Source: Amycolatopsis thermoflava N1165 (lineage in GTDB: Bacteria; Actinomycetota; Actinomycetes; Mycobacteriales; Pseudonocardiaceae). From it: a stretch of DNA of 64,000 nt. The stretch spans positions 617,980 through 681,979 of the forward strand of contig NZ_KI421511.1 of the NCBI RefSeq assembly GCF_000473265.1, in the 5' to 3' direction. Shown one piece after another: positions 48,847 to 63,144 of this stretch. Each line of letters opens with the position of its first letter. Position 1 is the stretch's first letter. The position numbers and the translations under genes were made by a program. The notes under the pieces are model-generated. The model was not told the DNA's origin, searched no databases, and saw only the letters and a program-made list of their open reading frames with translations.

Positions 48847-50232
48847 GTGACCACATCCGGAACGACCCTGCCGCAGGCCGGGCAGCACACGGGAAGCCCC
48901 AGCCGCACACTGCTGGCCGCGCTGCTCGGGTTCTTCGTCGTCACCCTGGACGCGGTCGTGATCAACATCGCGCTGCCGGCGATCCGGACCGACCTGGGCG
49001 GCGGCATGGCGGGGCTGCAATGGGTGGTCGACGGCTACACGCTGGTGTTCGCCGCGTTCCTGCTCACGGCGGGGTCGCTGACCGACCGGATCGGGGCGAA
49101 ACGGGCGTTCGGCCTCGGCGTGGCCGGGTTCGCGCTCGCGTCGGCGGCGTGCGTGCTCGCACCAGGGCTCGGGGCGCTGGTGACGTTCCGATTTGTCCAG
49201 GGCGCGGCGGCCGCGGTTGTCATGCCGTCGTCGATGGCCCTCATCGGTCAGGCATACCCCGATCCGGGGAAACGGGCGCGGGCGGTCGCGCTGTGGGCGA
49301 TGGGCGGCGCGCTGGCCTCGTCGGCGGGACCGGTGCTCGGCGGAGTGCTCGCTCTGGCGAGCTGGCGGTGGATCTTCGTGATCAACCTTCCGGTGGGCGC
49401 GGTGGCGCTGGTCCTGCTGGCCGGGGCGGCGCGCTCGGGCACGCACCGGGTGCCGTTCGACCTGGCCGGCCAGGTCACCGGGGTGATCGCGATGGCGGCG
49501 CTGGTCTACGGGGCGATCGAGGCGGGCCGCAGCGGGTTCGCCGACACCGGGGTGCTGGTGGCGCTGGTTGTGGCCGTGGTGGCGGTGGTCGCGTTCGTCG
49601 TGGTCCAGGTGCGGGGCGCCCACCCGATGGTGCCGCCCGTGCTGTTCCGCTCCCGCACCGTGGTGACCGCGGTGGTCATCGGGCTCGCGTTCATGGTCGC
49701 CTACTACGGGATGCCGTTCGTGATGAGCCTGGTCCTGCAGGACCGCGGTCTGTCGTCCCTGACCACCGGGGTGGTGTTCGTGCCGATGATGCTGGCTGGG
49801 CTCGTACTGACCCCGATCGTGCCCCGGCTGGTGGAACGAACCGGCGCCCGTGCCGTGGTGGTGACCGGCCTGGGCCTCATGACTGCCGGGCTGGTCGCGC
49901 TCGCCCTCGTTCCGGCCACCACACCCACGTGGGCTGTGGCCGCGCTGATGATGCTGGTCGGCCTGGGCGGGCCCACCGTCATCCCACCGGTGATCGCGGT
50001 GCTGCTGGACGCGGTGCCCGCGCACCGGGCGGGCACCGCGAGCGGGGTCCTCAACACCAGCAGGCAGCTCGGCGGTGCGCTGGCCGTCGCCGTGTTCGGC
50101 GCTCTGCTCACCGCGCCCTCCGGGATGCGGGTGAGCCTGCTGCTGGCCGCAGCGGTCACCGTCGTGGCGGCCCTCATCGCGGTGGCGGGTTTACGCGTCC
50201 ACCACCAGGACCATCCAAAGGAAACACATTGA
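48847..50232 (+). CDS. DHA2-family (14-helix) MFS drug exporter
   Basis: A 461-residue MFS protein with about 14 membrane segments. LDAVVINIALPAIRTDLG in helix 1, LQWVVDGYTLVFAAFLLTAGSLTDRIGAKR and GPVLGGVLA (motif C) are the DHA2/EmrB-QacA signatures. It should export a hydrophobic compound using protons. The GTG at 48847 has no obvious ribosome-binding site. The next gene begins at its stop (TGATG overlap), so it heads the unit controlled by the divergent MmyB-like regulator. Confidence 0.9.
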   Translation: MTTSGTTLPQAGQHTGSPSRTLLAALLGFFVVTLDAVVINIALPAIRTDLGGGMAGLQWVVDGYTLVFAAFLLTAGSLTDRIGAKRAFGLGVAGFALASAACVLAPGLGALVTFRFVQGAAAAVVMPSSMALIGQAYPDPGKRARAVALWAMGGALASSAGPVLGGVLALASWRWIFVINLPVGAVALVLLAGAARSGTHRVPFDLAGQVTGVIAMAALVYGAIEAGRSGFADTGVLVALVVAVVAVVAFVVVQVRGAHPMVPPVLFRSRTVVTAVVIGLAFMVAYYGMPFVMSLVLQDRGLSSLTTGVVFVPMMLAGLVLTPIVPRLVERTGARAVVVTGLGLMTAGLVALALVPATTPTWAVAALMMLVGLGGPTVIPPVIAVLLDAVPAHRAGTASGVLNTSRQLGGALAVAVFGALLTAPSGMRVSLLLAAAVTVVAALIAVAGLRVHHQDHPKETH

Positions 50233-50552
50233 TGTCTGACAAGGAACCCTCCGGGGCGGAGAAGATGTTCGGCGACTTCGCGCCCGCACTGGTGCACTTC
50301 ACCGACGACGTGCTCTTCGGCGAGGTGTGGCGGCGCACCGGGCTGACACCGAAGGAGCGCAGCCTGGTGACCGTGGCCGCGTTGGCGACCAACGGCAACA
50401 CCGAGCAGCTGGTGTTCCACCTCAACCTGGCCAAGGAGAACGGCAACACCGAAGCCGAACTGATCGAAGCGTTGACCCACCTGGCCTTCTACGCGGGCTG
50501 GCCGCAGCCGATGGCCGCAATGGCCGTGGCCAAGCAGGTCTTCACCGCCTGA
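50232..50552 (+). CDS. Carboxymuconolactone decarboxylase (CMD)-family protein
   Basis: A 106-residue CMD-fold protein. RSLVTVAALATNGNTEQLVFHLNLAKENG followed by ALTHLAFYAGWPQPMAAM is typical of gamma-carboxymuconolactone decarboxylase-like proteins. The AhpD redox CxxC is absent, so peroxidase activity is unlikely; a decarboxylase, isomerase or binding role fits better. Its ATG overlaps the exporter stop. The grouping CMD, alcohol dehydrogenase and cupin beside an MmyB-like regulator is common and hints at quinone or aldehyde detoxification. Confidence 0.85.
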   Translation: MSDKEPSGAEKMFGDFAPALVHFTDDVLFGEVWRRTGLTPKERSLVTVAALATNGNTEQLVFHLNLAKENGNTEAELIEALTHLAFYAGWPQPMAAMAVAKQVFTA

Positions 50553-50571
50553 CCATCGAAAGGAATTCATT

Positions 50572-51591
50572 GTGCGTGGAGCTGTTCTGCACGCCCCCGG
50601 CGATGTCCGGATCGAGGAGCGTGCCCACCCGGCGATCGAGGCGCCCACCGACGCGGTGATCCGCCTGTCCGCGACCTGCGTGTGCGGGTCGGACCTGTGG
50701 CCCTACCGCGGGATCGAGCAGGTGCACGGGCCCACCCCGATCGGGCACGAGTACGTCGGGATCGTCGAGGAGGTCGGCGGCGAGGTCACCACGATCAAGC
50801 CCGGCCAGTTCGTCGTCGGCTCGTTCTTCGCCTCCGACAACACCTGTGAGATCTGCCGCGCCGGGTTCCAGACCTCGTGCGTGCACCGCGAGTTCGTCGC
50901 GGGCGGCGCTCAGGCGGAGTACCTGCGGGTCCCGCTGGCCGACGGCACCCTGGTCGCCACGCCGGAGGCGCCCTCCGACGACCTGGTCCCGAGCCTGCTG
51001 GCGGCGTCTGACGTGCTGGGCACCGGCTGGTTCGGCGCCGTGGCCGCGGACGTGCAGCCGGGTTCGACCGTGGCCGTGGTGGGTGATGGCGCGGTCGGGC
51101 TGCTCAGCGTACTGGCTGCACGGGAGCTGGGGGCGGAGCGGATCATCGCGATGAGCCGCCACGAGTCGCGGCAGAAGCTGGCCACCGAGTTCGGCGCCAC
51201 CGACATCGTGGCCGAACGCGGTGGCGAGGGCGTGGCCGCGGTGAAGGAACTGACCGGCGGGCTGGGGGCGCACTCGGTCATCGAGGCCGTGGGTACGCAG
51301 GAGTCGATGATGCAGGCGATCCGGTCGGCCCGCCCCGGTGGCGCGGTCGGCTACGTGGGTGTTGCCCACGAGGTGTCGCTCCCGGGGGAGGAGTTGTTCT
51401 TCTCCCACGTCCGGCTGCTCGGTGGCCCGGCCCCGGTGCGGCGGTTCCTGCCCGACCTGATCGAGCGCATCCTGCGCGGCGCGATCGACCCGGGCAAGGT
51501 CTTCGACCTCGAACTGCCGCTCGACCAGGTCGCCGAGGGCTACCGCGCGATGGACGAGCGTCGCGCGATCAAGACCCTCCTACGCCCGTAA
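50572..51591 (+). CDS. Zinc-dependent alcohol dehydrogenase
   Basis: A 339-residue zinc alcohol dehydrogenase. Ligands are in ATCVCGSDLWPYRG and IGHEYVG; the structural zinc lobe is partly kept (CEICRAGFQTSC). The cofactor motif is VVGDGAVGLLSVLAA. It lies 19 bp after the CMD gene in the same unit; AAAGGA precedes the GTG at 50572. The substrate is likely the compound handled by the neighbouring exporter and cupin, or an aldehyde derived from it. Confidence 0.88.
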   Translation: MRGAVLHAPGDVRIEERAHPAIEAPTDAVIRLSATCVCGSDLWPYRGIEQVHGPTPIGHEYVGIVEEVGGEVTTIKPGQFVVGSFFASDNTCEICRAGFQTSCVHREFVAGGAQAEYLRVPLADGTLVATPEAPSDDLVPSLLAASDVLGTGWFGAVAADVQPGSTVAVVGDGAVGLLSVLAARELGAERIIAMSRHESRQKLATEFGATDIVAERGGEGVAAVKELTGGLGAHSVIEAVGTQESMMQAIRSARPGGAVGYVGVAHEVSLPGEELFFSHVRLLGGPAPVRRFLPDLIERILRGAIDPGKVFDLELPLDQVAEGYRAMDERRAIKTLLRP

Positions 51592-51601
51592 GGACGAAGA
51601 C

Positions 51602-52006
51602 ATGGACCTCATCCCGGTCAACGACACCGTCAAGACCCCGGCCGAGCGATTCACCGGCGACGTCTACCTGACCATGATCAAGACGCCGGAACCGCCGTCG
51701 CGGCTGGTCGCCTCGCTGGTCAGGTTCACCCCCGGCGCCCGCACCAACTGGCACTCCCACGCGGTCGGCCAGACCTTGCACGTCACCGAGGGCGTGGGAC
51801 TGGTCGTCACCCGCCACGGCACCGTGATCCGCATGCGTGCGGGTGACACGGTGTGGACGCCGCCAGGGGAGGAACACTGGCACGGCGGCACGAACACGAA
51901 CTGCATGAGCCACATCGCCATGCTCGAAGGCACCGAAGACGGCGACGGCACCACCTGGCTCGAGCCCGTCACCGACGAGGAGTACGCCGCCGCCCACCAG
52001 GCTTGA
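51602..52006 (+). CDS. Cupin-domain protein
   Basis: A 134-residue single cupin. TNWHSHAVGQTLHVTEGVGLV gives the first metal motif (HxH...E) and GDTVWTPPGEEHWHGG the second with its His. The family includes quercetinase-like and YhhW-like metal proteins. It is the last gene of the MFS/CMD/alcohol dehydrogenase unit, 10 bp after the dehydrogenase. AGGACGAAGAC precedes the ATG. It may act on a quinone or phenolic compound; that is an inference from company. Confidence 0.88.
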   Translation: MDLIPVNDTVKTPAERFTGDVYLTMIKTPEPPSRLVASLVRFTPGARTNWHSHAVGQTLHVTEGVGLVVTRHGTVIRMRAGDTVWTPPGEEHWHGGTNTNCMSHIAMLEGTEDGDGTTWLEPVTDEEYAAAHQA

Positions 52007-52084
52007 CTCCCGCAGCCGTCGCGGGCCAGGACGGAGGCGAGGCCAACACGAGCTGTCCCAGCAGGGTCTTGGTCCCTCGCCAGT

Positions 52085-52570
52085 GATCACCCGGCGCGCG
52101 TTGGACAAGGGATCGGCGAAGCGGGCCAGACCGAGCACCCGTCGCCGAGGCTCCCGAGCAGGCCGCAACGCCAGAGCATCACGACCCCCGATCGCCCCGA
52201 CCGGGAACCCGCTGCCGATGACCTTGCCCACGGACACGAGGTCGGGCCGGATGCCGTATCGCTGGTGCAGCTCGCCTTCGTGCAGGCGGAACGTGTTGAC
52301 CTCGTCGACCGCGAGCAGCGCGCCGTGCTGCCGCATCGTCGCACGCAATTGCCGGCAGGTCGTTCTACAGCAACACCAGCACCTAGCCGGGCACCACGCC
52401 GGGCGCGCCGGGAGAGACGACGGCGTCACCGGTGCCGTGGTAGTTGCCCTCGAACCGCACGATCAGCTCCCGCCCGGTGTGGACCAAGGTCGCGCGCAGG
52501 AGCAGAGCACCGCCTCGGGGCCCGACGAATCGGCCGGCGACGGCGAACCCCGTGCGGCGACCGGGTCGTT
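52085..52570 (-). pseudogene. Decayed class III aminotransferase (HemL-like)
   Basis: The 670 bp between the cupin and RraA genes contain no intact gene, but the minus strand carries class III aminotransferase pieces in the right order. HTGRELIVRFEGNYHGTGDAVV lies near 52400-52480. After a stop and a frame change come HGALLAVDEVNTFRLHEGELHQRYG and PDLVSVGKVIGSGFPVGAIGGRDAL near 52140-52330; the latter holds the PLP-lysine region (SVGKVIGSGFP). These match glutamate-1-semialdehyde aminomutase-like enzymes. Stops and frame changes between them show it is dead. It sits at the end of the lactam-type operon. Confidence 0.65.
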
Positions 52571-52678: not shown

Positions 52679-53350
52679 TCACCCCTCGATGACGAGTCCC
52701 TTCGCTTCGAGGACGCCGGCGAGGTTGCTGACCTCGATGACGCTGCGGCCCGAGCGGTACGCGGCGATGTAGGCGGCTTCCGCCTCTTCGCGCTTGCGGG
52801 CCTGCTCGATCGCGTACGCCAGGTCCTCGCGGCGCACCACGACCAGGCCGTCGGCGTCACCGCGGATCACGTCGCCGGGCCGGACCAGTTCGCCGCCGAT
52901 CTGGATCGGCTCGGCCAGTGGGCCGACGGTCTCCTTGACCGTGCCCTTGATGGACACGCTGTAGGAGAAGACCGGGAACCCCAGCTTGCGCAGCTCCGCC
53001 GTGTCGCGCACGCCGGTGTCGGTCACCAGCCCGGCGAGCCCCTTCGCCTGGCAGGCGTTGGCCAGCACGTCCCCGAACGAACCGGCCTCGGCGTACTCGC
53101 CGGCCGACACCACGACGACGTCACCGGGCTGGGCGTGGGCGATCGCCACCTGCAGCATCAGGTTGTCCCGCGGCGCGCAGCGCACGGTGAACGCCGGGCC
53201 GCACAACGACATGGCCGGGTCGACCGGTTTGAGTGCCGAGCTCAGCGCGCCCAAGCGCCCCTGGGCTTCGTGGATCGTGGCGGACGAGAAACGGGCCAGC
53301 TGCTCGACGAGCGCCGGGTCCGGGCGGTCGAACTTCGTGTTGACGCGCAA
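52679..53350 (-). CDS. RraA-family aldolase (4-hydroxy-4-methyl-2-oxoglutarate aldolase-like)
   Basis: A ~223-residue RraA/HMG-aldolase-family protein. Key features are SSATIHEAQG near the start, the phosphate or carboxylate-binding GEYAEAGSFGDVLANACQAKGLAG and the metal-binding GLVTDTGVRDTAEL with the conserved Arg-Asp. Enzymes of this type split 4-hydroxy-4-methyl-2-oxoglutarate (HMG) or 4-carboxy-4-hydroxy-2-oxoadipate into pyruvate plus a second acid, and also decarboxylate oxaloacetate. It is the last gene of the pxp operon. I favour the TTG at 53350, with GAAAGGA before it; GTG at 53365 is also in frame. Confidence 0.88.
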   Translation of the reverse strand: MRVNTKFDRPDPALVEQLARFSSATIHEAQGRLGALSSALKPVDPAMSLCGPAFTVRCAPRDNLMLQVAIAHAQPGDVVVVSAGEYAEAGSFGDVLANACQAKGLAGLVTDTGVRDTAELRKLGFPVFSYSVSIKGTVKETVGPLAEPIQIGGELVRPGDVIRGDADGLVVVRREDLAYAIEQARKREEAEAAYIAAYRSGRSVIEVSNLAGVLEAKGLVIEG

Positions 53351-53361
53351 GGGAAATCCTT

Positions 53362-54561
53362 TCACGACAGGCGGGCGCAGGCGCGGGCGATGGCCTCGCA
53401 CGCCTCGTCCAGGACGGCGGTGGAGGTGGCGAAGGAGATCCGGAAGTAACCGGGTGTCCCGTAGGCGGCGCCGTGGATCACGGCCACCCGCTCGAACTCC
53501 AGCAGGTAGCGGGCGAACTCCTCGTCGGTGCGCAGCACGTCCCTGGCGGGAGTGCGCTTGCCGAGCAGCCCGCCGCAGTTGACGAAGAGGTAGAACCCGC
53601 CGCAGGGTGCGGTGACCGACAGCCCGGGAACGTCGGCCAGCAGCTTGGCGACCCGGTCCCGGCGGCCGCGGTAGGTGGCGACCGTCGTGGCCACGAAGTC
53701 CTGCGGACCGGTCAGCGCCGCGACCGCCGCCGCCTGGCTGACCGAGGAGGGGCAGGACGACATCTGGGACTGCAGCTTGTTGATCGCGCCGACGAGCTCA
53801 CGCGGGCCGGCGCCGTAGCCGATGCGCCACCCGGTCATCGCGTACGTCTTCGACACGCCGTTGGTGAGGAACACCCGGTCCCGCAGCCGTGGTTCCACGG
53901 CCGCGAGCGTGGGCACGCTCTCCGGCTCATACCAGATTTCGTCGTAGATCTCGTCGGTGAGGACGTGCACCTGCGGGTGGGCCAGCAGCACGCCGGCCAG
54001 CGCGCGCAACTCCTCCGCCGAGTAGGCGGCGCCGGTCGGGTTGCCGGGGGAGTTGAGCACCAGCCACCGCGTCCGTGGCGTGATCGCCGCCTCCAGCCGC
54101 GCGGGGGTGAGCTTGAACCCGTCGGACTCGGGGCAGTCGACGATGACCGGTGTCCCGTCGTTGGCCAGCACCATGTCCGGGTAGGACACCCAGTACGGCG
54201 CGGGGATGACGACTTCGTCGCCGCTGTCGACCGTGGCCATCAGCGCGAGGAAGATGACCTGCTTGGCGCCACCGCCGACGGTGATCTCCTCGTCCGGGTA
54301 GTGCAGGCCGTGACGGTGGCCGAGTTTGGCCCGGATCGCCACCCGCAGTTCGGGGGTGCCGTTGACGGGCGTGTACTTGGTCTCGCCGCGTTCGACGGCG
54401 GCGATCGCGGCGGCCTTGACGTGGTCCGGTGTGTCGAAGTCCGGTTCGCCGACGGTCAGGTCGAGGATCCGCTGCCCCTGAGCGGTCAGCTCGCGCACGC
54501 GTTGCGCCGCCGCCGAGCTGGGCGAGGGCTTGATCCGGGCTACTCGTGCGGCCGTGGTCAT
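53362..54561 (-). CDS. Class I PLP-dependent aminotransferase (aspartate type)
   Basis: A 399-residue fold-type I aminotransferase of the AspC/thermophile group. ILDLTVGEPDFDTPDHV at the N-terminus, LVLNSPGNPTGAAYS (cofactor Asn), LTDEIYDEIWY and the PLP lysine in NGVSKTYAMTGWRIGY are all present, and YFRISFATS carries the substrate-carboxylate Arg. It would convert a glutamate-like amino acid to its 2-oxo acid. It starts 1 bp after the SDR gene and its stop lies next to the aldolase start, so amino donor removal followed by aldol cleavage is a natural reading. Confidence 0.92.
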   Translation of the reverse strand: MTTAARVARIKPSPSSAAAQRVRELTAQGQRILDLTVGEPDFDTPDHVKAAAIAAVERGETKYTPVNGTPELRVAIRAKLGHRHGLHYPDEEITVGGGAKQVIFLALMATVDSGDEVVIPAPYWVSYPDMVLANDGTPVIVDCPESDGFKLTPARLEAAITPRTRWLVLNSPGNPTGAAYSAEELRALAGVLLAHPQVHVLTDEIYDEIWYEPESVPTLAAVEPRLRDRVFLTNGVSKTYAMTGWRIGYGAGPRELVGAINKLQSQMSSCPSSVSQAAAVAALTGPQDFVATTVATYRGRRDRVAKLLADVPGLSVTAPCGGFYLFVNCGGLLGKRTPARDVLRTDEEFARYLLEFERVAVIHGAAYGTPGYFRISFATSTAVLDEACEAIARACARLS

Positions 54562-54562
54562 G

Positions 54563-55306
54563 TCAGTCCGCCCGCCTCTCGAAGTTCAGCCCGCCGGGCA
54601 CCTGGAAGGTCGGCAGGATCTCGATGTGGCCGACGTTGACGTGGCGCGGCGAGGCGATCGCGAACTCGATCGCGTCGGCGATGTCCTCCGGTTTGAGCGA
54701 CTCGTACCCGTCGTAGTACTCCCGCTGGGCGCGGTCCATGTCGCCGAGCAGGCGCCCGAAGATCTCGGTCTCGACCCGGCCAGGGCAGATCTCGGTGACG
54801 CGGACGCGCCTGCCGAAGGCGTCGACGCGGAGCTGGCGGGACAGCGTGTGCACGGCGGACTTCGTGGCGTGGTAGATGGTGTTGCCGCCGAAGTTGTAGA
54901 CCCCGGCGATCGAGCTGATGTTGACGATGTGCCCGAGGTCCCGCTCGACCATGCCGGGCATGACCAGCCGCACGAGGTGCAGGACGGCCTGGATGTTCAC
55001 CGCGACCTGCTCGTCGACGGCGAACTCGTCGGCGGTGAGGATGTTCCCGGTGCGCGAGACGCCGGCGTTGTTGACCAGGACGTCGATCTCGAGACCGTCG
55101 ACGAGCTCGGTCAGGGCCGCGGTGGAGGTGACGTCGACGGCGTGCGGGACGCACCCGGTGCGCCGGGCCAGCTCGTCGAGCCGTTCGGCGTTGCGGGCGA
55201 CGGCGTGGACCCGCAGGCCCTGTTTGGCCAGTCGTTCCACGACCTCGGCGCCGATGCCGGTCGAGGCGCCGGTGACCAGGGCGGTCTTGTAGTCGGAAAA
55301 CGGCAT
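54563..55306 (-). CDS. Short-chain dehydrogenase (YdfG/serine dehydrogenase-like)
   Basis: A 247-residue classical SDR with TGASTGIGAEVVERLA at the N-terminus, NNAGVSRTG, the active-site Ser in VNISSIAGVYNF and Tyr/Lys in YHATKSAVH. YdfG-type enzymes oxidise 3-hydroxy acids such as serine, threonine or 3-hydroxyisobutyrate. In this operon it may oxidise or epimerise the hydroxyl group of the substrate before cleavage. It is 26 bp after the transporter gene and 1 bp before the aminotransferase. Confidence 0.9.
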   Translation of the reverse strand: MPFSDYKTALVTGASTGIGAEVVERLAKQGLRVHAVARNAERLDELARRTGCVPHAVDVTSTAALTELVDGLEIDVLVNNAGVSRTGNILTADEFAVDEQVAVNIQAVLHLVRLVMPGMVERDLGHIVNISSIAGVYNFGGNTIYHATKSAVHTLSRQLRVDAFGRRVRVTEICPGRVETEIFGRLLGDMDRAQREYYDGYESLKPEDIADAIEFAIASPRHVNVGHIEILPTFQVPGGLNFERRAD

Positions 55307-55332
55307 TGTCCAGTGCTCCTTGGTGGGTCGGG

Positions 55333-56640
55333 TCAGGCGTCGTGCAGGGGTTCGTGGGCCCGGTCGCGCACCCTGGACACCGCGATGAGCGTGCCCAGCG
55401 CGGTGAGGACGGCGTAGTAGGCGGGGATGTGGACGTCGCCGGTCTGTCCGATGAGGAACGTCATCAGCAGTGGCGCGGTGCCGCCGAAGACGGCGGAGGA
55501 GATGTTGTAGCCCAGCCCGTAGGCGGAGTAGCGCACGCGGGTGGGGAAGAGCTCGACCAGCAGGATGTGGATGACGCCCGTGTGCCCGGCGAAGATGACC
55601 GCCATGACGCTGGCGCCCACGATCGCGAGTGCGACGTTGCCGGTGCCGATGAGCAGGTAGCAGGGGACACCCGCGAGGGCCATCGCGATGGCGGCGCCGG
55701 CGATGACCTTCTTGCGGCCGACCTTGTCCGAGAGGGCTCCCATGAACGGGATCGCCACGGAGATCGCCACGAGGCTCACCGCAGTCACCAGGAGACCTTC
55801 GACCTTGCCGAAGTGCAGCTCCTTGCTCATGAAGGTGGGCATGTAGGTGAACAGGACGTAGTAGCCGGAGCCGTTCATGAGCGGGATGAACAAGGCCAGC
55901 AGCATCGCGCGCCGATGCCGGGGCGAGGAGAACGCCTCCTTCAGCGGGTTGCGTGCCAGGCCGCCTTCCTCCTGGAGCCGCGTGAAGTTGGGGGTGTCGG
56001 AGATGCGGCGGCGGATGTAGAGGCCGGTGATGCCGAGCGGGATCGCGAGCAGGAACGGGATCCGCCAGCCGAAGGACTGCATCCGCTCGGCCCCGAGGCC
56101 GCTGGTCATCGCGGCGGCGATCAGCGTGCCGGTCAGCAGCGACAGGAACGACGCGATCTGGGCGTAGCTGGTGTAGAGGCCGCGTTTGCCCGGTGGGGCG
56201 TGCTCGGCGAGGAACGTCATGGCGCCCGCGGCTTCACCGCCGACCGAGAACCCCTGCAGGACCCGCAACAGGATCAGCAGGATCGGCGCCGCGATCCCGA
56301 TCGCGGCGTAGGTGGGAAGGAGGCCGATGGCGGCGGTGGCGACGCTGATCAGCATGATGACGAACACGAGCATCCGCTGACGGCCGATCCGGTCGCCGAG
56401 GTGGCCGCAGATGATCCCGCCGAGCGGGCGGAAGAAGAACGAGATCGCGTAGCCGACGAAGACCAGCATCACGGCGTTGGCCGAGTCCGGGAAGAACACC
56501 GCGGCGAGCGTGCCCGCCATGAACCCGAAGATGCCGTTGTCGTAGAGCTCGGCGAAGATGCCGACGCAGCCGGCCAGGGTCACCTTGCGGGCGGTCCTGG
56601 GATCGACCACGTTCGACTGTGATGACGCCACGGTACTCAT
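55333..56640 (-). CDS. MHS-family MFS transporter of the lactam-type operon
   Basis: A 435-residue MFS protein with 12 helices and MHS signatures: GIFAELYDNGIFGFMAG in helix 1, GHLGDRIGRQRML between helices 2 and 3 and RVLQGFSVGGEAAGAMTFLAEHA in helix 4. MHS carriers take up organic acids and betaines with protons, so it probably imports the cyclic amide or its acid. AAGGAG lies before the ATG at 56640; 11 bp separate it from pxpC. It belongs to the seven-gene unit 59134-52679. Confidence 0.9.
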   Translation of the reverse strand: MSTVASSQSNVVDPRTARKVTLAGCVGIFAELYDNGIFGFMAGTLAAVFFPDSANAVMLVFVGYAISFFFRPLGGIICGHLGDRIGRQRMLVFVIMLISVATAAIGLLPTYAAIGIAAPILLILLRVLQGFSVGGEAAGAMTFLAEHAPPGKRGLYTSYAQIASFLSLLTGTLIAAAMTSGLGAERMQSFGWRIPFLLAIPLGITGLYIRRRISDTPNFTRLQEEGGLARNPLKEAFSSPRHRRAMLLALFIPLMNGSGYYVLFTYMPTFMSKELHFGKVEGLLVTAVSLVAISVAIPFMGALSDKVGRKKVIAGAAIAMALAGVPCYLLIGTGNVALAIVGASVMAVIFAGHTGVIHILLVELFPTRVRYSAYGLGYNISSAVFGGTAPLLMTFLIGQTGDVHIPAYYAVLTALGTLIAVSRVRDRAHEPLHDA

Positions 56641-56651
56641 GGTGGACTCCT

Positions 56652-57638
56652 TCATCGGCGGGTAAGGACGGGGATGTCGAGGGACTGCAGCACCGCGGCG
56701 GCGCGGTGCCGGACCGCGCGGATGACGGCGCGTTCGGCCCGGTGCGCGGCGACCGCCTCGGCGACCGAGCGGCGGCGGAAGCGGATGGTGTGCCCGGGTC
56801 TGGCCTGCCCGAGCGGGGAGAGGCTGGTCGAGGTGACCACGGCGAGCACCGGATAACCGGCGGTGACGCCCCGGCCGCGGTGCAGGACCAGGAGTTGATC
56901 GCCGGCGGGGACTTCCACGGCGCCGACAGGCACACCGCGGGAGAGGACCTCGCCGGAGACGGCCCGCTGGGGCACCGGGCCGCTCATCCGCAACCCGATG
57001 TGGTTGCTCGACGGTGTCACGACGTAGGCGGCAGACAGCAGGCGCCCGGCCGAGTCGCCGAACTCGGCGACGTCGGGGCCGTCGGTCACGTCGATCGTCC
57101 AGCTCTCGCCGAACCGGGGCCGGGGCGGCCGGATGCGGAACAGCGGGTGCCGGAACTGCGGGTGCCCGATCGGCGGGCACTGCGCCCGGAGCGCGAGGTC
57201 GTCCCCGGGCCGCAGGAAGCGGCCGAATCCCAGGATGGTGTCGGGCGCGCAGCTGCCGAGCAGGGACTCGGCGTGGATCGAGCCGTAGACCGCCAGGTAC
57301 ACGCGCAAACCCAGCCGGATCCCCGTGACCGCCAGCGTCTGGCCGCCCCGGACGGCGAGCGGCTCCCACTGGGGCTGCGGGATCCCGTCGACCGTGACGT
57401 CGGCGGGGGCGCCGGTGACGGCGACGAGCACGTCGGTGGACGGTGTGCAGCTGAAGTCGAGTGCGGTGATCTCGATGAGCGGATCGGTGTCGTCGTTGCC
57501 GCACAGGGCGTTGGCGACACGTGCGGAGTACTGGTCGAGCGCGCCGTTGACGGGCAGGCCGTAGCGGGAGCGGCCGGGCCTGCCGAGGTCCTGGACGGTG
57601 GCGTGGCCGCTCTGCCGGACGGTCAGGGTGTCAGCCAT
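56652..57638 (-). CDS. pxpC: 5-oxoprolinase subunit C (biotin-dependent carboxyltransferase fold)
   Basis: A 328-residue PxpC/KipA-type protein. VRQSGHATVQDLGRPGRSRYGLPVNGALDQYSARVAN near the start, WTIDVTDGPDVAEF in the middle and SSNHIGLRMSGPVP then GDQLLVLHRGRGVTAGYPVLAVV are the family hallmarks. With PxpB and PxpA it forms the bacterial ATP-dependent 5-oxoprolinase that opens the pyroglutamate ring. The ATG at 57638 overlaps the pxpB stop by 8 bp. A transporter gene follows 11 bp later. Confidence 0.92.
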   Translation of the reverse strand: MADTLTVRQSGHATVQDLGRPGRSRYGLPVNGALDQYSARVANALCGNDDTDPLIEITALDFSCTPSTDVLVAVTGAPADVTVDGIPQPQWEPLAVRGGQTLAVTGIRLGLRVYLAVYGSIHAESLLGSCAPDTILGFGRFLRPGDDLALRAQCPPIGHPQFRHPLFRIRPPRPRFGESWTIDVTDGPDVAEFGDSAGRLLSAAYVVTPSSNHIGLRMSGPVPQRAVSGEVLSRGVPVGAVEVPAGDQLLVLHRGRGVTAGYPVLAVVTSTSLSPLGQARPGHTIRFRRRSVAEAVAAHRAERAVIRAVRHRAAAVLQSLDIPVLTRR

Positions 57639-58341
57639 GGTGGGCCACCAGGGCAGAGCCGGCGTAGTCGTCCCACGTCGCGGGGTCGATCGGCACGAAC
57701 CGGAACTCATCCCCCGGCTGGTAGGGGGTGAGCTGCTCGGATCCCAGGTCGAGGATGCGCAACGGCGTCCGTCCCAGCAGCGGCCAGCCGCCGGGGGAGC
57801 GCAGCGGGCAGATCACGGCCTGCCGTCCGGCCACGGCGATCGATCCGGGCGGGACGCTGGTGCGCGGCGAGGCCAGGCGGGGCACCGGGCGGGGGAACGG
57901 CGGACCGTCCATCATGGGCGCGCCGACCGGGGCGCCCAGGCACCGCACGGTCAGGACGGTGCCGGAGTGGATCTCCACGACCTCCCGTTCGGTGATGCCC
58001 AGCTGCGCCGCGACCTCGGGCAGATCGGGCCCGTGCTCGCCGCCGTACACCACCGGCACGACGAATCGCTTCGGCGCGCGACGGCGGCTCGAACCGTGCT
58101 GTGCGCCCGCTGCCCGCCGGACCATCCGCCGCACGGCGCCGTGGTCGGTGAGGCCAGGGTCGAACTCCACCAGAAGCGAGTCGTAGGTCGGCACGACCCC
58201 GTGGACACCGGCCAGGCCGGCGTCTTCGATCGCGTCGGCGAGCCTGTGCACGACCCGCCACCGGTGCTCGGTGTCCCCGTCCAGGGCCTTCACCACGATC
58301 GCGGAGTCGCCGCAGTCGGCGATCAGGGCGCCCTCAGCCAT
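57631..58341 (-). CDS. pxpB: 5-oxoprolinase subunit B (allophanate hydrolase subunit 1 fold)
   Basis: A 236-residue PxpB/KipI-type protein. Features are GVHGVVPTYDSLLVEFDP, the motif VVPVVYGGEHGPDLPEVAAQLG and a C-terminal PLLGRTPLRILDLG. It partners PxpC in the ATP-using part of 5-oxoprolinase. Both ends overlap neighbouring genes by 8 bp (pxpA and pxpC), so the three subunits are translationally coupled and made together. Confidence 0.92.
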   Translation of the reverse strand: MAEGALIADCGDSAIVVKALDGDTEHRWRVVHRLADAIEDAGLAGVHGVVPTYDSLLVEFDPGLTDHGAVRRMVRRAAGAQHGSSRRRAPKRFVVPVVYGGEHGPDLPEVAAQLGITEREVVEIHSGTVLTVRCLGAPVGAPMMDGPPFPRPVPRLASPRTSVPPGSIAVAGRQAVICPLRSPGGWPLLGRTPLRILDLGSEQLTPYQPGDEFRFVPIDPATWDDYAGSALVAHHG

Positions 58342-59134
58342 GACACCACCCCGCCCCGGCCCGGGAAGCCAGGACCTCGGTCAGGGCCGCGATGACGACG
58401 CCGGCGCGGGTCAGCTCGTCCCGGATCCGGTGGGCCAGGGAAATCGCGCCCGCGGTGTCGCCGTGCACCAGCACGGTGTCGCACTCGACGGGCAGATCGG
58501 TGTCGTCGACGGTCCGGACCACCCCTTCGGTCACCATGCGCACGGTGCGCCGGGCGATCTCGTCCGGGTCGTCGATCACCGCGCCCGGTGCGCTGCGCGG
58601 GACCAGGGTGCCGTCGGCGCGGTAGGCGCGGTCGGCGATACCCACGATCGCGACGGGCAGGCCGCGGGTGCGGGCGGCGACGGCGAGCTCACCCTGCTGC
58701 GCCAGCACGATCAGCGAGGGATCCACGGCGGCCACGGCGTCGGCGACCGCGTCGGCGTAGTCACTGCGGGTCGCGACGAGGTTGCCGAGCCTGCCGTGCG
58801 GCGCGACGTGGCGCACGCGGGTTCCGTGGGCGGTGGCGAAGGCCTGCAACGCGCCGATCTGGTACAGCACGTCGGTCCGCACCTCGTCGGGCGTCAGGTC
58901 CATCGCGCGGCGGCCGAACCCCACCAGATCGGGGAAGCTCGGGTGCGCGCCCACGGCCACGCCGCGGCGGACGCACGAGGCGACGGTCGCGTCCATGATC
59001 CGCGGGTCGCCGGCGTGGAAACCGCAGGCGACGTTCGCCGACGTCAGGAGGTCCAGGAGGGCCTCGTCGTCGCCCATCCGGTAGGCGCCGAACCCTTCGC
59101 CGAGATCGGCGACGAGATCCACCATGCGGGTCAT
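58334..59134 (-). CDS. pxpA: 5-oxoprolinase subunit A (LamB/YcsF family)
   Basis: A 266-residue PxpA protein. LVADLGEGFGAYRMGDDEALL, ANVACGFHAGDPRIM, GVAVGAHPSFPDLVGFGRR and HVAPHGRLGNLVA are the conserved metal- and substrate-binding segments; the last is HGRLGN where many homologues read KPHGALYN, a small but notable change. It is the first gene of the unit; LysR at 59369 is divergent. ATG at 59134 or 59125. The changed loop may mean a substrate other than plain 5-oxoproline. Confidence 0.9.
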   Translation of the reverse strand: MTRMVDLVADLGEGFGAYRMGDDEALLDLLTSANVACGFHAGDPRIMDATVASCVRRGVAVGAHPSFPDLVGFGRRAMDLTPDEVRTDVLYQIGALQAFATAHGTRVRHVAPHGRLGNLVATRSDYADAVADAVAAVDPSLIVLAQQGELAVAARTRGLPVAIVGIADRAYRADGTLVPRSAPGAVIDDPDEIARRTVRMVTEGVVRTVDDTDLPVECDTVLVHGDTAGAISLAHRIRDELTRAGVVIAALTEVLASRAGAGWCHG

Positions 59135-59284
59135 CTCACCCTCCGGAAAAATGCGCGGAAATGTTCTCGGAAAAACTGAGGCAATCTGCTCGAAACATCC
59201 TGTCCGAGCCCCGGGAATCCGGTGTTTCGCTGACTTTAAGCTCGGGGCCGCGGCCGGACAAATACGCGATCCGCGTGATGTGAT

Positions 59285-59338
59285 CGGGATCCGTTATGGC
59301 AGCGGATCCCGGGCCGGCGGCGGTGGTGGCGTTACGAT
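59285..59338 (+). promoter_or_regulatory. LysR regulatory region: dyad and -10 box
   Basis: CGGGATCCG (59285-59293) and CGGATCCCG (59303-59311) are perfect 9-bp arms with a 9-bp spacer. TACGAT (59333-59338) is a -10-like box for the LysR gene. The dyad overlaps the expected -35, the usual place for LysR autoregulation, while the pxp operon promoter lies on the other side. Confidence 0.5.
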
Positions 59339-59368
59339 GGGTCACCATTCGACCGGGAAGGGGCACGC

Positions 59369-60268
59369 ATGGACACCCGGCGTCTGTACTCGTTCGTCAA
59401 GATCGTCGACGCCGGCAGCATCACCCGCGCCGCCGACATCCTGCGCATCGCGCAGCCCGCGCTGAGTCAGCACGTGTCCATGTTGGAGCGGGACTTCAAG
59501 CAGCAGTTGCTGATCCGCAGCAAGCGTGGTGTCGCCCCGACCGAGGCCGGCCGGGCCCTGTACCGGCACGCGCAGCTGATCCTGCGCCAGGTCGAACAGG
59601 CCCAGGCCGCCGTCAGCGTCTCCGGCCGGGCCCCGGCGGGCAGTGTGTCGGTCGGCCTGGCCCCCTACAGCACCGGTGCGGCGCTGGCGCTGCCGCTGCT
59701 GCGGGCCGTCCGCGAGCGCTATCCGGACATCGTGCTGCACATCAACGAGAACTTCGGCGGCGTGATCAGCGAGGCGATCATGACCGGGCGCATGGACATG
59801 GCCTTCATCTACGACGCCGGGCCGATCCGGGGTGTGCAGTTCGAGCCGATGCGCACCGAGGAGCTGTTCCTGGTCGCGGGGCCGGGCTGCGCGGTCCCGG
59901 GCGGGGACGAGGTCGCGGCCGGCGACCTGGCCGAGGTCGGCCTGCTGCTGCCCAGCCGCATCCACACCATCCGGCGCGTGGTGGAGGCGGCCTTCGCCCG
60001 CGCGGAGGTGGAGCCGCGGGTGGTCGGCGAGATCGAGTCGGTGCTCACGCTGGTCAGCGCGGTCGGCGCCGACCTGGGCGCGACGGTCCTGCCGTGGTCG
60101 GCGGCGCGCGCGATCCTGGACACCGAGCACCTGATGGTGCGCCGGATCGTCGATCCGGTGATCGAGGTGAAGCTGTCGCTGTGCACCTCCGATCACCAGC
60201 CGTTGTCGGAGGCGGCGCTGGCCGTCCACGACCTCTTCCACGAGCTGATCGCCACTTTCCGGCCATGA
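59369..60268 (+). CDS. LysR-family regulator of the lactam-type operon
   Basis: A 299-residue LysR protein. The helix-turn-helix (SFVKIVDAGSITRAADILRIAQPALSQHVSMLERDF over ~8-43) and a periplasmic-binding-like effector domain (PAGSVSVGLAPYSTG, DMAFIYDAGPIRG) are complete. It resembles Nac/Cbl-like nitrogen or sulfur regulators in layout. It is divergent from pxpA and should control the seven-gene operon in response to its substrate. GGGAAGGGG precedes the ATG at 59369. Confidence 0.9.
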   Translation: MDTRRLYSFVKIVDAGSITRAADILRIAQPALSQHVSMLERDFKQQLLIRSKRGVAPTEAGRALYRHAQLILRQVEQAQAAVSVSGRAPAGSVSVGLAPYSTGAALALPLLRAVRERYPDIVLHINENFGGVISEAIMTGRMDMAFIYDAGPIRGVQFEPMRTEELFLVAGPGCAVPGGDEVAAGDLAEVGLLLPSRIHTIRRVVEAAFARAEVEPRVVGEIESVLTLVSAVGADLGATVLPWSAARAILDTEHLMVRRIVDPVIEVKLSLCTSDHQPLSEAALAVHDLFHELIATFRP

Positions 60269-60371
60269 CCCATCAGCGGATCCGATAACGTCAGCCGGAA
60301 TCGCTATTTGTGCCGCCGCGGAATCGCTCGATAACGTCGTGCGAACAGTTTGTTTTCGCGAGGAGTGCGGT

Positions 60372-61349
60372 ATGAAACAGCGTGTCCTGAGCACCCGCGG
60401 ACACCTGCCCGGAACGGGGCTGGAGCGCCTGGCCGGGCGGGTCGAGCTCGTGCGCGGGCCGGGCGACAAGCCGGGGGCCGGCGAGCTGGCGGACCTCGCG
60501 CGCGGCGTCGACGGCATCCTGTGCCTGGGCAACGACCGGATCGACGCCGCGCTGCTGGATGCCGCCGGCCCCGGGCTGAAGGTGGTGAGCCTGGCCAGCA
60601 TGGGTTTCGACGCCGTCGACCAGCGTGCCGCTGCCGATCGCGGCGTCGTGGTGACCCACACCCCGGGGGTGCTGGCCGAGACCACCGCGGACCTGGCGTG
60701 GGCCCTGATCCTGATGGCCCGCCGTCGTCTCGGCGCGGCCCGTGACCGGCTGCACGCCGGCGCCTGGACCGTGTTCCGCATGGACGACTTCCTCGGGCTG
60801 GACGTGCACGGCGCCACCCTCGGCCTGGTCGGCTACGGCCAGATCGGCCGCGCGGTCGCCCGCCGCGCCGCCGGGTTCGGCATGCGCGTGCTGCACCACG
60901 ACCCGTTCAGCACCGCCGGCGACGAGCTGTCACAGCCGGCGGACCTGCACACCCTGCTGGCCGAATCCGACATCGTGTCGATGCACGTGCCGCTGACCGA
61001 GGCGACCCACCACCTCATCGGCCCGGCCGAGCTGGGCAGCATGAAGACCACCGCGACCTTGATCAACACCTCGCGGGGTGGTGTCGTGGACGAGGCCGCG
61101 CTGCTGCACGCCCTGCGCGAGGGCGTCATCCACTCCGCCGGGCTCGACGTGTTCGAACACGAGCCGCGCGGGGCGGACGTCGCCGACCTGGTCGCGCAGG
61201 CGAAGCTGGTGGCCCTCCCGCACGTCGGGTCCGCCACCGAGGCGACCCGCGCGGCGATGGTGGACCTGGCCGTCGACAACCTCCTCGACGTCCTGTCCGG
61301 CCGGCCGGCGCGCACCCCGATCCCCGGCGCCGTGGCGGTGGCGCGGTGA
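60372..61349 (+). CDS. D-2-hydroxyacid dehydrogenase (glyoxylate/2-ketogluconate reductase type)
   Basis: A 325-residue member of the D-isomer 2-hydroxyacid dehydrogenase family. The cofactor motif LGLVGYGQIGRAVARRA is at ~150, the catalytic Arg in LINTSRGGVVDE, the Glu in DVFEHEP and the His in LPHVGSATE. The GhrB-like group reduces glyoxylate, hydroxypyruvate and 2-ketogluconate. With the idonate and gluconate 5-dehydrogenase-like genes behind it, 2-ketogluconate to gluconate is the best guess. AGGAG precedes the ATG at 60372. Confidence 0.88.
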   Translation: MKQRVLSTRGHLPGTGLERLAGRVELVRGPGDKPGAGELADLARGVDGILCLGNDRIDAALLDAAGPGLKVVSLASMGFDAVDQRAAADRGVVVTHTPGVLAETTADLAWALILMARRRLGAARDRLHAGAWTVFRMDDFLGLDVHGATLGLVGYGQIGRAVARRAAGFGMRVLHHDPFSTAGDELSQPADLHTLLAESDIVSMHVPLTEATHHLIGPAELGSMKTTATLINTSRGGVVDEAALLHALREGVIHSAGLDVFEHEPRGADVADLVAQAKLVALPHVGSATEATRAAMVDLAVDNLLDVLSGRPARTPIPGAVAVAR

Positions 61350-62116
61350 GCCACCCGCTGTTCGACATCCGCGGCCGCGTCGCCCTGGTCACCGGGTCCA
61401 GCCGCGGCATCGGGCGCGCGCTGGCCCAGGGGCTGGCGGAGGCGGGGTGCGTGGTCGTCCTCAATGGACGTGACCGGGCCGCGCTCGACCGGACCCGTGC
61501 CGAGCTGGCCGAGCGCACCGGGGCCACGGTGCACGCGCAGGCGTTCGACGTCACCGATCCGGGCGCGGTCGCCGAGGCGATCCCGCGCCTGGAGGAGCTC
61601 GCGGGTCCCGTGGACATCCTGGTCAACAACGCCGGGATGCAGCACCGGGCGCCGTTCACCGAGTTCCTGACCGAGGACTGGCATCGCCTGCTCGAAACCA
61701 ACCTCAGCAGCGCTTTCCTCGTCGGCCGCGAGGTCGCGCGGCGGATGACCGCCCGCGGCTCGGGCAAGATCGTCAACATCTGCTCGGTGCAGAGCGAGGT
61801 GGTCCGCCCCGGCATCGCGCCCTACTCGGCGACCAAGGGCGGGCTGAAGATGCTCACCAAGGGCATGTGCGCCGACCTCGGCCCGGCCGGGATTCAGGTC
61901 AACGGGCTCGCCCCGGGCTACTTCGACACCGAGCTCACCGCCGCGCTCGTCGCGGACGAGGATTTCAGCGCCTGGGTGCGCGGCCGCACCCCCGCCGGAC
62001 GGTGGGGCCAGGTGGGCGACCTCGTCGGTGCGCTGATCTTCCTGTGCTCGCCGGCGTCGGATTTCGTCAACGGCCAACTGCTCTACGTCGACGGTGGCAT
62101 GACCTCCGTCCTGTGA
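61346..62116 (+). CDS. Gluconate 5-dehydrogenase-like SDR
   Basis: A 256-residue SDR close in style to IdnO/Gno. ALVTGSSRGIGRALAQGLAEAG, NNAGMQHRAPFTEF, the Ser in VNICSVQSE and Tyr/Lys in YSATKGGLK, and the terminal LYVDGGMTSVL are all present; the NNAGMQHR segment is typical of gluconate 5-dehydrogenases. It should interconvert 5-ketogluconate and gluconate. The GTG start overlaps the preceding stop (GTGA). It is the middle gene of a three-gene sugar-acid unit. Confidence 0.88.
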   Translation: MSHPLFDIRGRVALVTGSSRGIGRALAQGLAEAGCVVVLNGRDRAALDRTRAELAERTGATVHAQAFDVTDPGAVAEAIPRLEELAGPVDILVNNAGMQHRAPFTEFLTEDWHRLLETNLSSAFLVGREVARRMTARGSGKIVNICSVQSEVVRPGIAPYSATKGGLKMLTKGMCADLGPAGIQVNGLAPGYFDTELTAALVADEDFSAWVRGRTPAGRWGQVGDLVGALIFLCSPASDFVNGQLLYVDGGMTSVL

Positions 62117-62130
62117 AGCGAGGAGAACCC

Positions 62131-63144
62131 ATGCTTGCGTGTGTCGTGCACGGCGCCGGGGACCTTCGGGTCGAGAACCGTGCGCCGGCGGAACCGGGCG
62201 AGGGCGAGATCGCCGTGGACGTCTCCTTCGGCGGCATCTGCGGATCGGACCTGCACTACTACCACCGCGGCGCGGTCGGCGACTTCCACGTGCGGGAACC
62301 GCTGGTGCTCGGTCACGAGGTCGTCGGTCACGTCGCGGCCCTCGGCTCCGATGTGGACGGTCCGGCGGGCGGTACGCCGGTGGCCGTCCACCCGGCCACA
62401 CCCTGCGACGACTGTCCGGAATGCACCGGCAACCACCGGAACGTCTGCGCCGACACGCGCTACCTCGGCAGCGCGGCCCGGTTGCCCCACGTGCACGGCG
62501 GGTTCGCGCAGCGCATCACGGTGCCGGCGGCACAGGTGCGCGCGCTTCCGCCCGGGCTCGAACTCGAACGGGCCGTGCTCGCGGAACCGTTGTCGGTGGC
62601 GCTGCACGCGGTGCGCCGGGCCGGTGACGTCACCGGCCGGCGCGTCCTGGTCACCGGTGCCGGGCCGATCGGTTGCCTCCTGGTGGCCGCACTGCGCCGG
62701 GCCGGCGCGGCCGAGGTCGTGGTCAGCGACCTGCTGGACGCGCCACTCGCTCTGGCGTCGAAGGTCGGCGCCACCTCGGTGGTGCGGGCGGACGATCCGG
62801 CGGGGCCGGGGGAGGCGGACATCGCCATCGAGGCGTCCGGGTCCCCGGCCGGGCTGCGCACCTGTCTGGAACGGGTGCGCCGCGCCGGCCGGGTCGTCCT
62901 GCTCGGACTGCTGCCGCCCGGTGAGGTCGGATTCCTCGGCAACGTGGTCGTCACGCGGGAACTGACCCTCGCCGGAGCGTTCCGGTTCGACCGCGAATTC
63001 GACGAGGCGCTCACCCTGCTCGCCGACGGCCTCCCGGTTGATCCGGTCGTCACCCACACGTTCCCGCTTGAGCGGGCCACGGAGGCGTTCGACGTGGCCG
63101 GCAACCGCGCGGTCGCGTCGAAGGTCCTGCTCGACCTGAGCTGA
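62131..63144 (+). CDS. L-idonate 5-dehydrogenase-like zinc enzyme
   Basis: A 337-residue zinc polyol dehydrogenase similar to IdnD. GGICGSDLHYYHRGAVGDFHVREPLVLGHEVVG carries the catalytic zinc ligands and is nearly diagnostic for L-idonate 5-dehydrogenase; the structural zinc cysteines are in CDDCPECTGNHRNVC. The cofactor motif is LVTGAGPIGCLLVAALRRAG. It would oxidise L-idonate to 5-ketogluconate, which the SDR upstream then reduces to gluconate. GAGGAG precedes the ATG. No transporter or regulator lies in the unit. Confidence 0.9.
   Translation: MLACVVHGAGDLRVENRAPAEPGEGEIAVDVSFGGICGSDLHYYHRGAVGDFHVREPLVLGHEVVGHVAALGSDVDGPAGGTPVAVHPATPCDDCPECTGNHRNVCADTRYLGSAARLPHVHGGFAQRITVPAAQVRALPPGLELERAVLAEPLSVALHAVRRAGDVTGRRVLVTGAGPIGCLLVAALRRAGAAEVVVSDLLDAPLALASKVGATSVVRADDPAGPGEADIAIEASGSPAGLRTCLERVRRAGRVVLLGLLPPGEVGFLGNVVVTRELTLAGAFRFDREFDEALTLLADGLPVDPVVTHTFPLERATEAFDVAGNRAVASKVLLDLS

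Follow-up and report, generated by a model that had tools for sequence, protein, structure and literature searches.

We report an 11-gene locus in a 64,000-nucleotide stretch of the Amycolatopsis thermoflava N1165 genome (contig NZ_KI421511.1, positions 617,980 to 681,979; hereafter the window, numbered from its first letter). The locus consists of a pxp operon and a divergent arm that comprises LysR, HADH, IdnO, and IdnD genes. We propose, with a probability of roughly 45%, that it serves the catabolism of a 5-oxoproline (a gamma-lactam) carrying a hydroxyl group and a polyhydroxylated chain on C4. This proposal is built on observations of gene content, conservation, linkage, a repeated operator-like site, a remodeled PxpA subunit, and an aldolase that keeps its key residues.

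Gene content of the divergent locus

The initial annotation, made from the sequence alone, had described a seven-gene, one-direction operon next to a divergent LysR gene. Indeed, pxpA-pxpB-pxpC-MHS-SDR-AT-RraA are all present and intact on the minus strand, running from 59134 to 52679 with 8-bp overlaps and gaps of at most 26 bp, and the LysR gene occupies 59369-60268 on the plus strand. That operon is real, but the unit is larger than had been drawn, since the LysR-HADH-IdnO-IdnD arm (59369-63144, plus strand) had been missed. Gene families were assigned from Pfam, NCBIfam, and PDB sequence matches, and the features are as follows.

58334-59134, minus: pxpA-like (LamB/YcsF) subunit with family-constant residues replaced (PF03746, 308.8 bits)
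57631-58341, minus: pxpB-like subunit (CT_C_D; PF02682, 169.2 bits), 8-bp overlap with pxpA
56652-57638, minus: pxpC-like subunit (CT_A_B; PF02626, 216.5 bits), 8-bp overlap with pxpB
55333-56640, minus: MHS-type metabolite/H+ symporter (TIGR00883, 351 bits, below the cut-off of 443.45), 11-bp gap
54563-55306, minus: short-chain dehydrogenase/reductase (SDR), YdfG-like, 3-hydroxyacid dehydrogenase type (PF00106, 160.2 bits), 26-bp gap
53362-54561, minus: class I aspartate-type aminotransferase (AT; NF004769, 658.7 bits), 1-bp gap
52679-53350, minus: RraA-family HMG/CHA-type aldolase, TTG start at 53350, 11-bp gap
59369-60268, plus: LysR-type regulator (PF00126/PF03466; NF008410, NAC, 359.3 bits, above the cut-off of 309)
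60339-61349, plus: D-2-hydroxyacid dehydrogenase (HADH), glyoxylate/2-ketogluconate reductase type (PF02826, 182.1 bits)
61346-62116, plus: IdnO-like SDR, gluconate 5-dehydrogenase type (closest PDB chain 5u9p, gluconate 5-dehydrogenase, E = 9e-88)
62131-63144, plus: IdnD-like Zn-type dehydrogenase, L-idonate 5-dehydrogenase type (PDB 6dkh, E = 6.3e-68)
59259-59298, minus: putative operator-like site 1, in the LysR/pxpA gap (46.0 bits, 40-column matrix)
60271-60310, plus: putative operator-like site 2, between LysR and HADH (34.0 bits, 40-column matrix)

Genes for all three PxpABC subunits (LamB/YcsF, CT_C_D, and CT_A_B) thus share one operon. The pxpB product scores 127.8 bits against TIGR00370, under the cut-off of 145.55, and the pxpC product scores 149 bits against the PxpC model NF045499 (cut-off 500). 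The best NCBIfam match of the SDR is PRK10538 YdfG at 153.5 bits (cut-off 411). The AT exceeds the cut-off of NF004769 (PRK06107; 658.7 versus 617 bits) and matches the PDB entries 6f77 and 6f35, aspartate aminotransferases A and B, with E values of 4e-133 and 1.3e-131. In the second arm, the HADH gene may truly start at the ATG at 60372, 11 codons inside the listed frame. Its product is matched best in NCBIfam by glyoxylate reductase (259.7 bits, below the cut-off of 455) and in the PDB by 2cuk (E = 1.9e-63), with 9m0t, a "probable 2-ketogluconate reductase," at 1.2e-56. IdnO reaches 303.6 bits against NF005983/PRK08085 gluconate 5-dehydrogenase (cut-off 408), and the best match of IdnD is NF007375/PRK09880 L-idonate 5-dehydrogenase at 293 bits (cut-off 469).

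PxpA, the aldolase, and the repeated site

The window PxpA carries the loop APHGRLGN in place of the canonical KPHGALYN, so the altered HGRLGN loop that had been pointed out in the LamB/YcsF subunit is genuine. When PxpA sequences are divided by residue 111 into a clade and a canonical group (residue numbers are those of the window PxpA), N8, A54, K111, A115, and E164 are kept in 20/20 canonical sequences, wherein position 166 is F or Y, and are replaced in the window (N8V, A54C, K111A, A115R, E164V) and in all 41 clade members. Within the clade, N8 is V and A54 is C in 41 cases each, K111 becomes A, T, or C (38, 2, and 1), A115 becomes R or K (39 and 2), E164 becomes V, L, or I (39, 1, and 1), and residue 166 is I in 38, with L, A, and F once each. 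The lysine is also kept by the four solved PxpA chains found, and the window protein matches solved PxpA chains strongly. The replaced residues may line the active site. Window PxpA passes the subfamily models NF003814 (336.2 versus a cut-off of 226 bits) and NF003816 (231.7 versus 213) and misses three equivalog models (263.2 versus 392, 260.9 versus 337, and 234.4 versus 378 bits). Given the replaced constant residues, the remodeled PxpABC may work like a 5-oxoprolinase, yet it is not filed as one.

The genome encodes four PxpA proteins, and the other three (L082, L083, and L084) retain the ordinary lysine. One of them, L083, belongs to another pxpABC set with an ordinary loop and an MHS neighbor 35% identical to that of the window. 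Because the strain already has this set, the locus is unlikely to be a plain 5-oxoproline operon; the initial annotation had argued likewise, on the ground that plain 5-oxoproline would not need an aldolase. An altered-loop PxpA gene also adjoins pxpB and pxpC at L079:7528-10144, amid genes that we take to resemble those for a CoA-transferase, an aldehyde dehydrogenase, a thiamine diphosphate enzyme, and an SDR; from this context, the altered-PxpA branch may have further substrates.

The RraA protein scores 217.6 bits against NF006731, above the cut-off of 179, and 197.5 bits against TIGR02798 LigK, below the cut-off of 304.5, and matches PDB 3noj with an E value of 3.5e-48. That entry is the HMG/CHA aldolase of Pseudomonas putida F1, likewise of the RraA family; in its description (PMC5065237), 11 of the residues that we compared are named as catalytic, metal-binding, or pocket residues, and the pocket is called quite large relative to the substrate. 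Eleven of the 12 compared residues are the same in the window protein: R40, N71, G101, D102, R123, D124, G144, T145, K147, R195, and E199. D102 was compared in addition to the 11 residues named in that description. The remaining position, H75, has changed to Q in the window protein and in all 16 members examined from other genomes. Of the 11, R40 is kept in 15/16 of these members and all others in 16/16, so that the essential Arg-123, the metal-binding Asp-124 and Glu-199, and the pyruvate pocket recur throughout. Besides the H75 change, the settings differ: the P. putida enzyme acts in gallate/protocatechuate cleavage, whereas here the gene lies with lactam and sugar-acid-type genes.

Alignment of LysR/pxpA gaps revealed a conserved block, and a 40-column matrix was trained on 12 loci with the window, L036, L041, and L055 excluded. 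In the window, this matrix finds sites 1 and 2; the next-best window site scores 3.9 bits and the best among 20 shuffled 64-kb windows 10.5. A pattern derived from sites 1 and 2, with at most one mismatch allowed, matches only those two places in the 8.69-Mb genome and gives 0 control matches. In 10 of 19 scanned loci (L035, L036, L037, L039, L042, L043, L056, L085, L086, and L087), another site lies between LysR and HADH and scores 18.9 to 37.0 bits. The loci used for training necessarily have high first-site scores. Further sites precede AT in L052 (21.2 bits) and SDR in L086 (a third site, 32.0 bits), and one lies in the LysR/pxpA gap of L104 (12.0 bits). In Arthrobacter L048 and L050, weak sites precede AT (10.7 and 13.7 bits, near the shuffle maximum of 10.5), and other sites lie in the LysR gaps. 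LysR would control both arms from the two putative operator-like sites.

Conservation and co-occurrence in other genomes

The full divergent 11-gene order occurs in the window, L035, L036, L042, L085, L086, and L087, and hence spans Amycolatopsis, three further genera of its family (L085, L086, and L087), and one Streptomyces. PxpA is 97 to 98% identical in L035 and L036 (A. tucumanensis and A. deserti). The set is conserved among soil actinobacteria, with occurrences in Streptomyces, Rhodococcoides, and further genera, so the association is not due to chance.

The linkage of pxpABC with RraA and aminotransferase genes, for which the initial annotation had suggested a genome search, was borne out. 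A PxpA scan yielded 38 loci, of which 23, together with the short locus L003 from the window itself, have an altered loop. Among these 24, pxpB and pxpC are present in 24, AT in 21, RraA in 16, HADH in 16, IdnO in 10, and IdnD in 6 (at least 100 bits); the partner counts are lower bounds because the sequence is short or breaks off early at L003, L040, and L054 and does not reach the cluster end at L046, L047, L049, L051, and L053, which are of the type II described below. RraA is present past the ends of L049 and L051 and, judged by position, of L046. In the 15 ordinary-PxpA loci, the same threshold, which favors the clade since most of these loci come from other phyla, gives AT in 2, RraA in 1, HADH in 1, IdnO in 1, and IdnD in 0. 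One ordinary-PxpA locus, from Cupriavidus (L060:3071-18018), has two RraA-like genes nearby, along with an AT showing 53% identity and an HADH-like gene, a resemblance that may reflect chance or convergence.

IdnD also moves within the set. Within the pxp operon, it is found between SDR and AT (L052) or between AT and RraA (L039 and L041). It directly precedes RraA in the clusters L100, L101, and L103, and the metagenome-assembled genome L104 also has it in the cluster; in L108, HADH-IdnO-IdnD is convergent with RraA-AT. In a relative (L089:8600-9387), only C-terminal pieces of RraA and IdnD are left, side by side, and the interior appears to have been lost in one internal deletion. In Saccharopolyspora spinosa L045, the order is pxpABC-RraA-MHS, with a weak AT (37%) on the opposite strand. 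The altered PxpA is rare: in a class sample, 5/394 genomes match at E ≤ 1e-75, and 3 of these, our own included, have the altered loop.

A second layout, type II (L100, L101, L103, and L104), contains pxpABC, AT, MHS, an M24-like protein, a DkgA-like aldo-keto reductase, HADH, SDRs, a xylose isomerase-like TIM barrel, IdnD, RraA, and LysR. A HIBADH-like gene was seen in L100 and L103, and the order in L104 is rearranged. Both cluster types coexist in the genome that contains L044 and L103 and in the one that contains L049 and L102.

Co-occurrence extends beyond linkage. Among 199 Streptomyces genomes, altered-type PxpA occurs in 13 and IdnD (E ≤ 1e-90) in 54; IdnD is present in 13/13 genomes with altered-type PxpA versus 41/186 without (p = 1.3e-8 by Fisher tests, which ignore relatedness and genome size). 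The 13 include the center genome G599 as well as G598 and G600, all known beforehand, and p becomes 4.9e-8 without G599 and 7.0e-7 without all three. An IdnD at least 73% identical is found in 6 Streptomyces genomes, all within the 13 (p = 2.1e-8, or 3.3e-7 without G599). These co-occurring Streptomyces include genomes with IdnD elsewhere, away from the pxp cluster, and such separate IdnD genes adjoin IdnO in 8 of 9 loci (L109-L117). In the family sample, altered-type PxpA occurs in 7/200 and IdnD in 18/200 genomes, with IdnD in 6/7 genomes that have the PxpA versus 12/193 that do not (p = 1.5e-6, or 1.4e-5 without our own genome). The PxpA genome missing IdnD is G112, which carries the S. spinosa locus.

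Several genes around the locus were considered separately. A class III aminotransferase remnant resembling glutamate-1-semialdehyde aminomutase lies directly 3′ of rraA (51950-52550, minus); stops and frame changes interrupt it and about 63 residues match, and we rejected it as a working part. Alcohol dehydrogenase and cupin genes at 50.6 to 52.0 kb were likewise rejected as locus members, as they are convergent to the operon and unmatched beside the L035 and L036 operons. They fall within a run at 48847-52006 (plus) that reads toward the pxp operon and comprises an MFS transporter, a small protein presumably resembling carboxymuconolactone decarboxylase, a Zn-type dehydrogenase, and a cupin, probably as a separate operon. 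On the other side, a protein with two SnoaL-like stretches (63198-63977, minus) adjoins the 3′ end of the IdnD gene. Two adjoining open reading frames at 41356-42191 (plus) resemble what we take to be a transposase split across two frames.

Proposed pathway, alternatives, and implications

In the proposed pathway, the MHS symporter, presumably the importer of the locus substrate, would take up a 4-hydroxy-4-(polyhydroxyalkyl)-5-oxoproline-type lactam, which the remodeled PxpABC would open in an ATP-dependent step, yielding a 4-hydroxy-4-substituted glutamate. The side-chain oxidation state would be set by the SDR, probably through reduction of a ketone beside C4, and the AT would convert the opened product to a 2-oxoglutarate analog. 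Cleavage of this analog by the RraA aldolase would give pyruvate and a 2-ketohexonate, for example 2-keto-L-gulonate. HADH would then reduce 2-keto-L-gulonate to L-idonate, IdnD would oxidize L-idonate to 5-keto-D-gluconate, and IdnO would reduce the latter to D-gluconate, which would enter central metabolism. In this scheme, all substrates and reactions, as well as the binding of LysR, are inferred. An AT followed by an aldolase argues for a 4-hydroxy-2-oxo acid intermediate, and lactam opening ahead of both enzymes argues for a 4-hydroxy-5-oxoproline as the substrate. Because three enzymes resemble those of the 2-ketohexonate, idonate, 5-ketogluconate, and gluconate series, the other aldol product would be a 2-ketohexonate.

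This series is also that of the fungal D-glucuronate route, of which GluF is reportedly a further part. GluC of Aspergillus niger is a D-2-hydroxyacid dehydrogenase that converts 2-keto-L-gulonate to L-idonate (PMC4870679), GluE converts L-idonate to 5-ketogluconate (PMC5306355), and some plants break down ascorbate through the same intermediates (PMC11066805). The fungal route (GluC, GluD-GluE) and the Escherichia coli idn pathway share the reductase/dehydrogenase/reductase order (PMC4870679, PMC5306355); here, in contrast, the series is joined to a lactam, transamination, and aldol arm beside one LysR gene. The pxpTABC set of Corynebacterium glutamicum is similar in that a transporter gene is linked to a PxpABC-type lactam opener and the regulator gene is divergent, but there the transporter is of the APC superfamily, the regulator is GntR, and the substrate is plain 5-oxoproline (PMC13274462). 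In their place, the window has MHS, LysR, and a remodeled PxpA, along with an AT, an aldolase, and dehydrogenases of the sugar-acid type. A literature search for 5-oxoprolinase with 4-hydroxy-4-methyl-2-oxoglutarate aldolase found no paper, a broader one gave a single paper whose title concerns Sulfolobus, and none found on L-idonate, aldolase, and gluconate 5-dehydrogenase also treated 5-oxoproline.

Ascorbalamic acid is the boldest candidate for the substrate, and an unlikely one. We take this compound, reported to occur in plants, to be an adduct in which alanine is joined to C2 of vitamin C and whose lactam form would, on our own derivation of its presumed structure, be a 4-hydroxy-4-acyl-5-oxoproline. 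Its formula is given as C9H13NO8, and this equals ascorbate plus dehydroalanine. PxpABC would open the ring, the SDR would reduce the former ascorbate C3 ketone, the AT would transaminate, RraA would release pyruvate and 2-keto-L-gulonate, and HADH, IdnD, and IdnO would lead to D-gluconate, so that every gene would have one job. The accessible parts of the literature on ascorbalamic acid, ascorbate-dehydroalanine adducts, and alkylated ascorbates yielded no structure of ascorbalamic acid. No description of a microbial pathway for carbon-alkylated ascorbates is known to us, although no dedicated search was made.

Several points weigh against the substituted-lactam pathway. HADH is closer to glyoxylate reductases than to 2-ketogluconate reductase, the NCBIfam equivalog cut-offs are missed by IdnD, IdnO, HADH, and SDR alike, and for each dehydrogenase both the preferred cofactor and the direction are guesses. 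Two curated PxpA subfamily cut-offs are still passed by the window protein. No IdnD was found in the examined stretches of Arthrobacter L048 and L050, S. spinosa L045, and several Streptomyces, and L079, despite its altered PxpA, has no AT, RraA, or IdnD homolog at 45 bits. The matrix scan did not find the site in type II L100 and L103 or in L045 (nor in L079 and L083; best score among the five, 4.7 bits), and no site of at least 10 bits lies within 1.5 kb on either side of the separate idnD genes L109-L117. The co-occurrence tests lose weight through the relatedness and genome size that they ignore, and in the family sample the genes are linked. Finally, the extra type II genes (M24-like, DkgA-type aldo-keto reductase, xylose isomerase-like barrel, HIBADH-like) have no role in the model.

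Some of these observations fit the substrate suggested by the initial annotation, a 4-hydroxy- or 4-hydroxy-4-methyl-pyroglutamate (or glutamate) broken down to pyruvate and glyoxylate or to two pyruvates. HADH would then reduce glyoxylate, in keeping with its best NCBIfam match (glyoxylate reductase) and best PDB matches (glycerate dehydrogenase/glyoxylate reductases), and IdnO and IdnD would be neighbors for gluconate or idonate use; Arthrobacter L048 and L050 indeed keep pxp, AT, RraA, and SDR with no sugar arm in the stretch examined. The logic of ring opening, transamination, and aldol cleavage is supported by the conserved linkage and the aldolase residues. As the whole answer, however, this substrate is doubtful, for it leaves the genes resembling 2-ketoacid reductase, L-idonate 5-dehydrogenase, and gluconate 5-dehydrogenase, that is, the sugar-acid arm, unexplained. 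IdnD sits inside the pxp operon or beside RraA in several lineages, the repeated site also precedes HADH-IdnO-IdnD, and IdnD co-occurs even when it is elsewhere in the genome.

An amino-sugar-acid lactam, such as that of a 5-amino-5-deoxyhexonate, would be opened and directly transaminated to 5-ketogluconate, with RraA left for a side product. One transamination would thus account for both IdnO and IdnD, and the changed family-constant residues of PxpA would fit, but NF004769 places the AT in an aspartate transaminase family, AT and RraA stay paired apart from the other genes in L048 and L050 with an operator-like site in front, and RraA would have no role of its own, which makes this substrate improbable. 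We regard as quite improbable a conjugate of pyroglutamate with a sugar acid (N-substituted, opine- or Amadori-like), with one arm for each half. Candidate enzymes for both halves are at hand, and an M24 hydrolase-like protein is additionally encoded in type II clusters; nevertheless, no gene of the 11-gene type resembles a splitting hydrolase or oxidase, and plain glutamate would presumably offer an HMG/CHA-type aldolase nothing to act on. An ordinary 5-oxoproline operon with passenger genes is very improbable: pxpABC with a transporter is already known from C. glutamicum pxpTABC (PMC13274462), and the two subfamily cut-offs are passed, but residues constant in 20 canonical PxpA proteins are lost, the same genome holds the ordinary-loop pxpABC with MHS, and the partner genes are conserved with the altered pxp set.

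If the substituted-lactam pathway is correct, the PxpABC family would include a branch recruited for substituted lactams, beyond 5-oxoproline, and RraA-type aldolases would gain a role outside the gallate/protocatechuate pathways. The substrate class named here is specific and testable, and its breakdown would link lactams that resemble amino acids with the idonate/gluconate route.

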